Positions 23,091 to 35,416 of a DNA stretch of 35,424 nt are shown piece by piece. Source of the stretch: Candidatus Hinthialibacter antarcticus (GTDB lineage Bacteria > Hinthialibacterota > Hinthialibacteria > Hinthialibacterales > Hinthialibacteraceae); NCBI GenBank assembly GCA_030765645.1, contig JAVCCE010000002.1, positions 1 through 35,424 of the forward strand. Direction: 5' to 3'. How positions within the stretch are numbered: the stretch's first letter is position 1; the number at the start of each line of letters is the position of its first letter. Position numbers and translations under genes: made by a program. The notes beneath the pieces were generated by a model. It worked only from the letters and a program-made list of their open reading frames with translations. It was not told the origin of the DNA and made no database searches.

Positions 23091-24242
23091 ATGGCGAAAA
23101 AACCATTGCGCGTTGGCTTGATTGGCTGCGGCTTCATGGGAAAAACCCACTCCAACGCATATCACGTTGTTAACAAGTTTTTTGATTTGGATATTCAACC
23201 GGTATTGAAAACCGTCTGCTCAATTGACAAAGACGCGGCGCAGTCGTTTGCCTCAAACTGGGGTTATGAAAACGCCGAAACCGATTGGCGCAAAGTTGTT
23301 GAGAGCGATGATATTGATTTGATCGACATCTGCCTGCCCAACAATTTGCACCCGGAAGTCGCCATCGCCGCCGCCAAAGCGGGCAAAGCAATTTTTTGCG
23401 AAAAGCCGCTGGCGCATAATACCGAACAGGCCGAAGCAATGACCAAAGCGGTAGAAGACGCTGGCGTTCCCAATCAGGTTTCGTTTAACTATCGCCGCGT
23501 CCCTGCGGTCACGATGGCGAAGCAATTAATTGATGAAGGCCGCCTCGGGAAAATCTTTCACTACCGCGCCAATTTTTTGCAGGATTGGACTATCTCCAAT
23601 GACGTCCCGCAGGGCGGCGACGCCACTTGGCGACTGGATGCAAAAGTCGCGGGATCGGGCGTGATCGGCGATTTACTCGCGCACTGCATTGATACGGCGA
23701 TGTGGCACAACGGCGTCATTTCCAAAGTGCAGGCCGTGACCGAAACCTTCATCAAAGAACGCAAGCACGCAGTCACCGGCAAGATGGAACCTGTCACCAT
23801 TGATGATGCTTGTATTTTCCATTGCTGGTTTAATAACGGATCGCTGGGCAACTTTGAATCGACCCGTTATGCGCGCGGTCACAAAGCGCTTTATACCTTT
23901 GAAATAAACGGCGAGAACGCCTCTATCGCTTGGGACCTTCACGACCTGAATCGTTTGTCGTTCTTCGATCATACCGACGAGGGCCGGTTGCGCGGTTGGC
24001 GTTCGATCCATGTCACCGATCATAGCGGAGACCACCCTTACATGGACCACTGGTGGGTGCCGGGATTGTCGATTGGTTATGCCGAATCGTTTGTTCATCA
24101 ATTGGCGGGATTTTTGAAGTCCATGTCAGGCGGAGACAAAAATCAGCCTGATTTCCGCAGCGCATTGCAGACGCAGTATGTATGCGACTCGGTCATCAAA
24201 GCCGCGAAGTCCGGCCAGTGGGAAGACGTCAAAAAGGCGTGA
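23091..24242 (+). CDS. Gfo/Idh/MocA family oxidoreductase
   Basis: NAD(P)-dependent sugar dehydrogenase, 383 aa, cytoplasmic, no signal peptide. The Rossmann motif [17 protein letters not shown] begins at residue 8. The family's catalytic lysine is in CEKPLAHN (about 103), and a [12 protein letters not shown] segment holds the active-site Asp/His positions. It probably oxidises a hydroxyl of a sugar or glycoside (C3 is typical for relatives in such clusters). Two nt after the isomerase gene, it forms an operon with it. A hairpin/T-rich terminator candidate at 24264-24293 ends it before the DUF559 gene. Confidence 0.9.
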
Positions 24243-24263
24243 GGATGTAACCATAAATCTTAA

Positions 24264-24293
24264 AGGGCGGCGAAAACCGCCGCTCTTTTCTTT
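24264..24293 (+). terminator. Terminator candidate before DUF559 gene
   Basis: GGCGG (24266-24270) / CCGCC (24277-24281) with loop CGAAAA, then CTCTTTTCTTT. A short stem, so moderate support. Confidence 0.5.
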
Positions 24294-24303
24294 CGCCGAT
24301 GAT

Positions 24304-24735
24304 ATGAAAAGAAACACATCGATTCGGGCAAAGAAAATTGCAAAGCAGTTGCGAAGAAATCTGACTCCTGCTGAGAAGTATTTATGGTCAAAAATGCGAG
24401 CAGGACAGTTAAGTAATTGTCATATTAGAAAGCAACACCCAATCGGTCCATTCATTGTTGATTTTTTTATCTCTGATTGGAATTTAATTATCGAACTTGA
24501 TGGTGAGTCGCATCACTACCAAATTGATAGGGACAAAGAGCGTGAATCATATTTTTATCATCAGGGATATAAAGTCGTTCGTTTTCAAAACCAAGACGTT
24601 TTTGACAATGTAGAAGGCGTTGTTGAGCAAATAAGGCAATTTGAAATGAATCAAACCAACCCCCCACTAACTCCCCCCGAACTTCGGGGGGAGAACTCGG
24701 ATATCGAAATTAGAAGTAAAGGCATGGATGAATGA
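24304..24735 (+). CDS. DUF559 / Vsr-like endonuclease-domain protein with repeat-encoded tail
   Basis: 143 aa. The PD-(D/E)XK/Vsr-like core shows LTPAEKYLW (20-28), FIVDFF (D53), IIELDGESH (E64, D66) and VVRFQNQDV (91-99), the usual DUF559 pattern. Residues about 119-131 (NPPLTPPELRGEN) are translated from a REP-like hairpin, so the last ~25 residues are not native to the domain. The ATG at 24304 is used; the open frame extends upstream into the dehydrogenase gene but reads as unlike protein. It is AT-richer than its neighbours and separates two sugar-isomerase operon parts, consistent with insertion. Function of the family is not established; nuclease activity is inferred from the fold. Confidence 0.83.
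   Translation: MKRNTSIRAKKIAKQLRRNLTPAEKYLWSKMRAGQLSNCHIRKQHPIGPFIVDFFISDWNLIIELDGESHHYQIDRDKERESYFYHQGYKVVRFQNQDVFDNVEGVVEQIRQFEMNQTNPPLTPPELRGENSDIEIRSKGMDE
24657..24697 (+). repeat. REP-like hairpin, copy 1 (inside DUF559 gene)
   Basis: C-rich lead CAACCCCCCACTAA followed by the hairpin CTCCCCCCGAA-CTTCGGGGGGAG. It encodes NPPLTPPELRGEN in the DUF559 frame. It is the inverse of copy 2 at 24743-24782. Confidence 0.85.
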
Positions 24736-24807
24736 ACTTCTAGTTCCTCCCCCAAAGATTGGGGGAGGCTAGGCGGGGGTTGATAATCCTGTGAAATTAG
24801 AAGTAAA
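24706..24807. repeat. 15-bp direct repeats flanking REP copy 2
   Basis: GAAATTAGAAGTAAA occurs exactly at 24706-24720 and 24793-24807, bracketing 72 bp that carry the DUF559 stop codon and REP copy 2. This resembles a target duplication or a slipped duplication left by an insertion. Confidence 0.75.
24743..24782 (-). repeat. REP-like hairpin, copy 2
   Basis: Read on the minus strand it gives CAACCCCCGCCTAGC, then the hairpin CTCCCCCAATCTTTGGGGGAG, aligning with copy 1. Together they form an inverted (REPIN-like) pair with about 45 nt between. Confidence 0.85.
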
Positions 24808-24828
24808 CCTTAAATGGGAGGCGTCATC

Positions 24829-25674
24829 ATGAAAGTGGGAATTAACTTGTTGCTCTGGACGGCGGCGGCGGATGAAAGCCACCTCGGCGTTTTAGACAAA
24901 GTCAAAGAATGGGGATACGACGGCTTCGAACTGCCAATGTTCGACCCCGCCTGTTCGCCTTGGAAGAAACTCGCTGACCACGCCGACGGTCTTGGCTTAG
25001 GGCGCACGGCGGTCACCATTGTCTCTGATGAAGCAAACCCCATTAGCGAAGACAAATCTGTTCGCGAAAAGGGAATCGAGCACATTAAAAAGTGCATCGA
25101 CAGTTGCGCCGAACTTGGCGCCGAAACCTTAGTCGGCCCGCTCTATTCCCCCTGCGGAAAGCTCATTGGTCGTGGTCGCAGCAACGACGAATTTAGCTGG
25201 GCGAAAGAGGCGATGGCCCAGGCGGCGGAATACGGAAAACAAGCTAATGTTGTCATTGGCATGGAACCGCTCAACCGTTTCGAGACCTATGTTTTTAACG
25301 GAATGGCGGACGCAGTGCAATTATGCGAAGAAGTCGGGCATCCAAATTTGGGGCTGCTCTACGATACCTTCCATAGCCACATCGAAGAAAAAGACCCCAT
25401 TGCGGCAATTCAAAAAGCGGGCAAACACATTGCCCATATTCATATCTCAGAAAGCGACCGCAGCACGCCAGGCAAAGGCCAGGTGCGCTGGGAGGATTCA
25501 TTCAAAGCAATCAAAGCCATTGGGTATGACGGCTGGCTGACCATCGAAGCCTTTGGGCGTTCCATGCCCGAAGTCGCAGCGGCGACTTGCATCTGGCGTT
25601 CGATGTTTGACAGTGAAGAACAACTCGCAACAGACGGATTGAATCATATCAAAAAAATGTGGAGTGCAGCATGA
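24829..25674 (+). CDS. Sugar epimerase, D-tagatose/psicose 3-epimerase-like
   Basis: 281-aa TIM barrel, cytoplasmic. The metal-binding set of ketose 3-epimerases is present: E146 (GMEPLNRFE), D179 (YDTFHSH), H205 (HIHISESDR) and E240 (TIEAFGR), together with the ESDRSTPGKG substrate loop. Likely to epimerise a ketose, or a 3-keto sugar in this context, at C3. GGGAGG (24816-24821) precedes the ATG at 24829; the in-frame ATG at 24814 overlaps that site. The stop overlaps the next start (ATGA at 25671), coupling it to the DUF1080 gene. Exact substrate unknown. Confidence 0.87.
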   Translation: MKVGINLLLWTAAADESHLGVLDKVKEWGYDGFELPMFDPACSPWKKLADHADGLGLGRTAVTIVSDEANPISEDKSVREKGIEHIKKCIDSCAELGAETLVGPLYSPCGKLIGRGRSNDEFSWAKEAMAQAAEYGKQANVVIGMEPLNRFETYVFNGMADAVQLCEEVGHPNLGLLYDTFHSHIEEKDPIAAIQKAGKHIAHIHISESDRSTPGKGQVRWEDSFKAIKAIGYDGWLTIEAFGRSMPEVAAATCIWRSMFDSEEQLATDGLNHIKKMWSAA

Positions 25675-35381: not shown

Positions 35382-35416
35382 CCCTCTCCCCACTGGGAGA
35401 GGGTTGGGGTGAGGGC
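35382..35416. repeat. REP-like hairpin with G-rich tail
   Basis: Stem CCCTCTCCC (35382-35390) / GGGAGAGGG (35395-35403), loop CACT, followed by TTGGGGTGAGGG. The hairpin plus G-rich tail matches the architecture of copy 2 at 24743-24782 (hairpin then GGCGGGGGTTG). The window ends just after it. Confidence 0.75.

Follow-up and report, generated by a model that had tools for sequence, protein, structure and literature searches.

In the genome of Candidatus Hinthialibacter antarcticus, a stretch of 35,424 nucleotides (nt) (assembly GCA_030765645.1, contig JAVCCE010000002.1; hereafter "the window," meaning the whole stretch of DNA analyzed) carries a small nuclease gene of the DUF559 family, the 3' end of which runs into a pair of inverted palindromic hairpins. 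Taking this locus together with its counterparts elsewhere, we consider it probable that a DUF559 gene constitutes, with its surrounding palindromic repeats, one small (~0.5- to 0.6-kb) mobile unit of the homing endonuclease type, in which the palindrome is both target and boundary. The evidence, all of it read from sequence, consists of the association of gene and repeats, the symmetric anatomy of the unit, the occurrence of filled and single-palindrome alleles, insertion in operons and in frame within genes, the presence of intragenomic copies, and a repeat type that tracks the nuclease. The linkage suggests that DUF559 proteins are a long-missing partner that moves or maintains these hairpin repeats.

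DUF559 genes are bracketed by inverted repeats across bacteria

DUF559 loci were chosen with a family alignment of the domain alone, and their flanks were ignored in the selection. Given that tails were left out of the query alignments, tail sequences were unable to bias the choice of loci, and we reject search bias of this kind as the source of the pattern. This alignment recovered relatives; a search of the named genomes with the window protein as the single query recovered none. Eighty named loci were fetched, and the 74 with enough flank were analyzed, each being scored by the strongest inverted repeat that its two 300-nt flanks form with each other, with a threshold of at least 30.

By this measure, 64 of the 74 loci (86%) are bracketed, versus 2.5% of 748 control open reading frames (ORFs) on the same contigs (Mann-Whitney U test, p = 4e-38) and 3.5% of the short control ORFs (n = 314). 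The original prediction had held that DUF559 genes travel with such hairpins in other genomes and had proposed looking beside unrelated genes as a check; the association is borne out, and beside unrelated genes the hairpins are rare. A strict triplex motif lies within 250 nt upstream at 55, downstream at 51, and on both sides at 45 of the 74 loci, where the background chance is 1.7% per side. The typical layout reads hairpin, tail, start codon, gene, stop codon, inverted tail, and inverted hairpin, with the repeats often no more than 50 nt from the domain. Bracketed loci span 12 named phyla or candidate phyla, and a replicate set of profile-picked DUF559 genes from randomly drawn Pseudomonadota, mostly multi-DUF559 genomes, gave 27 bracketed genes out of 37. 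On phage and prophage contigs, close DUF559 relatives are bracketed in 10 of 11 cases and remote PD-(D/E)XK relatives in 2 of 35. We therefore reject a general property of PD-(D/E)XK nucleases as the cause: with close relatives bracketed and remote nucleases and control ORFs not, the pattern belongs to the DUF559 clade rather than to its superfamily or to small genes as such.

The association also holds at the level of whole genomes. Among 150 Pseudomonadota, at least five copies of the CCCTCTCCC hairpin occur in 18 of 31 genomes with DUF559 and in 6 of 119 without it (odds ratio of 26, p = 2e-10, with ancestry and genome size uncontrolled).

At some DUF559 genes (loci L190, L194, L225, L162, and L171), a full inverted repeat pair lies on each side, making four repeats in all, as if the gene sat between elements resembling REPINs (paired repetitive extragenic palindromic [REP] sequences). 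Such repeats also adjoin the gene at the Escherichia coli and Neisseria gonorrhoeae DUF559 loci that we examined. In E. coli, several BoxC-type repeats lie directly downstream of the DUF559 gene ycjD, located between sapF and fabI. The sapF-ycjD-fabI stretch is largely covered in 3,363 of 5,426 complete genomes, and those inspected among the others hold other genes there. A blastn search of E. coli with an enterobacterial element as the query gave no match. The PLSDB records NZ_CP141089, NZ_OL790696, and NZ_CP119142 are chromosome-sized E. coli and N. gonorrhoeae sequences filed as plasmids.

Filled and empty sites, dispersed copies, and in-frame insertions

Filled and empty alleles of a single site, as expected for a homing gene, were found in three settings: between hppD and hmgA in Xanthomonas, in MetH, and in the window operon compared with that of a relative. 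At the Xanthomonas site, states were called by tblastn in the 27 species having both flanks. The series palindrome-tail-DUF559-tail-palindrome is present in 20 of them, only a lone palindrome (AAGCCCCTCTCCCnnnGGGAGAGGGGCTT or a close variant) occupies the spot in 6, and neither is found in 1; on the hmgA tree, these states require at least seven changes. The outer arms and flanks are identical in filled and single-palindrome alleles, which argues that the exchange occurs at the palindrome. Split matches in ~3 of the 20 filled copies are as expected for a decaying selfish gene.

Insertions also occur in cobalamin-dependent methionine synthase (MetH). Among 27 relatives from the Stagnimonas family, 3 have hairpin-DUF559-hairpin in frame (~150 amino acids) in one linker of MetH (L273/L331, L348, and L359), with the MetH domains intact on both sides; the same linker measures 24 to 32 amino acids in 23 of the 27. 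These cases favor gain of the unit over loss. A different palindromic repeat (PREGGDPV..DTRLRGDDG) sits in frame at this linker in one further relative (L336), so the linker tolerates several repeat types. Other in-frame hosts include methylases of the Mod, HsdM, MmeI, and Eco57I types, HsdS, a CoA-transferase, and a Mur-ligase-like protein. As a descriptive observation, restriction-modification genes (methylases and HsdS) are often the hosts (L022, L253, L262, L263, L268, and L276).

Two genomes (G014 and G018) hold two unit copies each, ~90% identical over roughly 0.5 to 0.6 kb and set in unrelated surroundings. The unit does not have the features of an insertion sequence: it contains no DDE, serine, tyrosine, or HUH transposase and shows no constant short target duplication, the duplicated sequence being the palindrome itself. 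Sequence comparison shows the bracketed DUF559 gene to be a discrete mobile unit. The sapF-fabI interval of E. coli was rejected as an empty site, given that ycjD-less strains carry another operon there, eefRABCD (PMC12817139), and the Azospirillum plasmids having the flanks are all filled, with no empty site among them.

Repeat-nuclease specificity and enzyme fold

Within genomes, repeats were compared across DUF559 genes: the left repeat scores a median of 46 against the right repeat of the same gene and 22, a far poorer match, against the repeat of another DUF559 gene. Repeat type tracks nuclease sequence after taxonomy is taken into account, although the correlation is modest (partial Mantel r = 0.23, p = 0.0002).

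The window protein matches Pfam DUF559 (PF04480) with E = 1.5e-31 and 108.9 bits against a cutoff of 20.6, and it retains the E..D..ExD core with its acidic residues intact. The family-conserved residues E24, Q44, D53, E64-x-D66, and R80 are all present, E24, E64, D66, and R80 being invariant in the family. Its AlphaFold model has a mean predicted local distance difference test (pLDDT) score of 85.7, with low confidence over the C-terminal 25 residues. In a Foldseek search, the best match of the model, as expected for an enzyme of the homing type, is the homing endonuclease I-Bth0305I (E = 1.3e-5), followed by NGO0050, which has a solved structure (3HRL), with Vsr further down; the profile match of DUF559 to 3r3p has E = 1.4e-4. 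As a PD-(D/E)XK/EDxHD nuclease, DUF559 has closer ties to homing endonucleases than to HUH transposases. The original prediction had likened DUF559 to the REP-associated tyrosine transposases (RAYTs) as a helper in moving or maintaining hairpins; the association behind that idea is strong and general, but this fold leaves the RAYT comparison unconfirmed at the level of mechanism.

The window locus

The features of the locus are as follows.

24304 to 24735, plus strand: DUF559 (YcjD/Vsr-like, PD-(D/E)XK/EDxHD) nuclease gene, 143 amino acids
24657 to 24697, minus strand: repeat copy 1, a G-rich tail (CAACCCCCCACTAA) plus the hairpin at 24671 to 24693, coding for the NPPLTPPELRGE tail of the nuclease
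24742 to 24782, plus strand: repeat copy 2, inverted relative to copy 1, the hairpin at 24746 to 24768 plus the tail CTAGGCGGGGGTTG
24655 to 24785, no strand: complete inverted pair, whose single-strand fold is a closed cruciform-like structure
24706 to 24720, plus strand: 15-nt direct repeat GAAATTAGAAGTAAA, left copy
24793 to 24807, plus strand: 15-nt direct repeat GAAATTAGAAGTAAA, right copy, enclosing repeat copy 2
24262 to 24290, plus strand: terminator-like GC hairpin and T run 5' of the DUF559 gene, recognized by eye
23091 to 24242, plus strand: upstream operon gene, GFO/IDH/MocA oxidoreductase
24814 to 25674, plus strand: downstream operon gene, xylose-isomerase-like TIM barrel
24243 to 24813, no strand: inserted unit, the 571-nt segment separating the two operon genes (approximate ends)

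The DUF559 ORF runs from the ATG at 24304 to the stop codon at 24733 to 24735, and its product ends in ...NQTNPPLTPPELRGENSDIEIRSKGMDE; an alternative in-frame start at 24178, overlapping the upstream gene, is less likely. As first described, the gene stands alone between the parts of a sugar operon. In the nearest relative, G004 (71% protein identity), only 34 nt separate the same two operon genes, and neither a DUF559 gene nor a hairpin is present; this is the empty site that the original prediction had proposed to look for. The copy inserted in the window operon retains an intact nuclease, and of the repeats it has the 3' pair alone. CTTAAA is found at 24259 and again at 24809, perhaps as a short target duplication.

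Each hairpin has a perfect 10-bp stem, and the first encodes the PLTPPELRGE tail of the protein. Together with their tails, the two copies make a 41-nt inverted repeat that is 76% complementary. The single-strand fold of the pair has an outer stem (CAACCCCC/GGGGGTTG), the two hairpins, and an inner stem (AATTAGAAGT/ACTTCTAGTT). Its folding energy of -35.5 kcal/mol (z = -7.0) is matched by 0 of 200 shuffles, and these values, with the control ORFs of the flank comparison, led us to reject chance hairpins. In the whole window, the direct repeat GAAATTAGAAGTAAA has exactly two occurrences, one on each side of copy 2. The hairpin-coded C terminus, the second, inverted hairpin, and the exact direct repeats had all been described beforehand, and each is confirmed.

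Unlike most DUF559 genes elsewhere, the window gene carries its two hairpins together on the 3' side and lacks one on the 5' side (left-repeat score, 16), where the terminator-like hairpin occupies the place that the left hairpin has in other units. The best explanation of this copy is a one-sided remnant of the full unit. An Rfam search of the region gave no match.

Repeat class and distribution in this genome

The repeats consist of a hairpin, one arm of which is pyrimidine and the other purine, and, after it, a G-rich third-strand tail that mirrors the purine arm. The window copies follow this BoxC/PIT intrastrand triplex layout (CTCCCCCC..GGGGGGAG plus GGGGGGTTG), and we assign them to that type on the basis of their sequence. 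The motif is found in E. coli and >260 other genomes (Holder et al. 2015, PMC4666352); in E. coli it forms a triplex in vitro and is associated with genome instability. That paper reports no mobility gene near the motifs and is silent on DUF559, YcjD, and nucleases of any kind, and we found no literature linking DUF559 to triplex repeats, in a search with poor coverage of subscription papers. The earlier term "REP-like" needs refining: compared with the GTAG/CGTC REPs (PMC3733652), these tails are CTAA or CTAG plus a G run with no consistent GTAG tag, and REP identity was rejected.

The CTCCCCC..GGGGGAG hairpin has 17 copies in the 5.15-Mb genome, two of them at the window DUF559 gene, and a reversed control pattern has 0 matches. 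Of the DUF559 genes in this genome, one is accompanied by CTCCCCC repeats and another by CCCTCTCCC repeats, of which there are 42 copies. The second gene (on contig C24) has repeats on both sides and an in-frame TAG, the state of a decaying copy. A CCCTCTCCC hairpin also lies at 35382 to 35403 of the window, leaving 21 nt to the end of the contig, and in this genome several contigs terminate near repeats of this type, probably as assembly breaks. Three Y1 transposase (RAYT-like) genes are present as well, flanked by other repeats, e.g., GGTGGGTTAAGAACCCACC, and on that ground they were rejected as drivers of the window repeat family.

A proposed mechanism and its alternatives

We posit a full unit of the form palindrome-tail-DUF559-inverted tail-palindrome. 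In this model, the DUF559 nuclease would recognize and cut (or nick) the palindrome or its extruded hairpin, and the break would be repaired from a unit copy with the same palindrome ends, turning a single palindrome into palindrome-gene-palindrome. The two palindromes are simultaneously direct and inverted repeats, and recombination between them would excise the gene precisely, with one palindrome left behind. The solitary and paired hairpins of these genomes may then be targets, footprints, or gene-less derivatives. That the palindrome is the substrate that DUF559 cuts is what we infer from the modeled fold, the anatomy, and the specificity. As for the wider claim, we see the case as evenly balanced for the idea that BoxC/PIT-type triplex repeats have, throughout bacteria, DUF559 nucleases as their dedicated enzymes. 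This would be a homing-type system analogous but unrelated to RAYTs, with the palindrome as both boundary and insertion site and with each nuclease clade having its own palindrome family.

Several points weigh against a homing-type unit. The window copy has no left hairpin (score of 16). Ordinary recombination between palindromes yields precise loss without any DUF559, and in Xanthomonas the alleles with a single palindrome could be scars left by excision and not targets. The MetH empty sites show no palindrome, so a preexisting one is not always required. Six of the 24 hairpin-rich Pseudomonadota genomes, and G004, G006, and G007 among the relatives of the window genome, have no detected DUF559; the repeats can thus outlive or lack the gene, which is not required for their persistence. 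Nine DUF559-positive genomes lack the single hairpin type counted (they may carry other types). Finally, for the only DUF559 protein with a functional report, VsrA of Caulobacter, a role in mismatch repair has been proposed (PMC12907096).

The main remaining rival, which we judge rather unlikely, is a passive cassette: another agent (a RAYT or replication slippage) would spread the palindromes, and DUF559 genes would travel as passengers enclosed by two of them and be exchanged through homologous recombination of dispersed copies. The excess of hairpins over DUF559 genes and their persistence in DUF559-less genomes fit this idea, as does the ability of two recombining palindromes to yield a single-palindrome allele. 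It leaves unexplained, however, why DUF559 should be almost the sole cargo (2.5% in the controls), why close DUF559 relatives but not remote nucleases are bracketed, and why repeat type tracks the nuclease and not the host; the three Y1 genes of the window genome would be candidate agents, but other repeats flank them.

It is improbable, in our estimation, that DUF559 is a Vsr-like repair or maintenance partner that removes or processes structures at its repeats, the repeats being regulatory or sensing sites and mobility incidental. The relationship to Vsr (PMC1189080; structural matches), the tie between Caulobacter VsrA and SOS induction upon loss of cytosine methylation (PMC12907096), and the link of triplex motifs to E. 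coli genome instability (PMC4666352) speak for such a role, but a housekeeping gene should not be patchy, sit in frame in unrelated genes, or be frame-broken, as are the split Xanthomonas copies and the TAG-bearing second copy of the window genome. Transposition in the manner of RAYTs, with DUF559 a true transposase acting on single-stranded hairpin ends and solitary repeats being nonautonomous, REPIN-like elements, would account for the inverted hairpin-plus-tail termini, the REPIN-like inverted pairs, and dispersed copies that share the type of the gene's flanks. We find it very improbable, given that DUF559 is not a tyrosine transposase and has the homing endonuclease/Vsr fold, that no consistent short target duplication is seen, and that filled and empty alleles share the palindrome itself.

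No enzyme had been linked to the BoxC/PIT/triplex repeats, which have been on record since the 1990s from E. coli and many further genomes, and DUF559 is still a domain of unknown function. The link gives the repeats a candidate driver and DUF559 a testable role, and it brings to light a gene that enters conserved genes, metH among them, as an in-frame insertion.

Comparison with known systems

The repeats described here belong to the same class as the BoxC/PIT/intrastrand triplex motifs (PMC4666352) and are likewise dispersed in many genomes; what differs is their connection here with a gene family. The RAYT/REP/REPIN systems share with DUF559 units a single gene bracketed by inverted palindromic repeats that are also dispersed genome-wide (the window pair lies on the 3' side only). 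Unlike a RAYT, the window protein is no Y1 (HUH) tyrosine transposase but a DUF559 protein with the I-Bth0305I/Vsr fold, and the DUF559 repeats have a triplex-type tail in place of the GTAG tag and an exchange of palindrome for unit in place of IS200-like ends.

I-Bth0305I resides in a group I intron and has a long, asymmetric target. Vsr repairs T:G mismatches and adjoins dcm genes; to our knowledge, it has as a rule no flanking palindromes. The EDxHD homing endonuclease I-Bth0305I (3R3P) is both the best structural match of the window protein and the product of a selfish gene that spreads by cutting DNA, whereas DUF559 units are intron-less and palindrome bounded. YcjD of E. coli and NGO0050 of N. 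gonorrhoeae (3HRL) are both DUF559 members, with repeats adjoining the gene. Rickettsia palindromic elements and miniature inverted-repeat transposable elements also place palindromic repeats in frame inside protein genes, but they carry no nuclease gene, as DUF559 units do.
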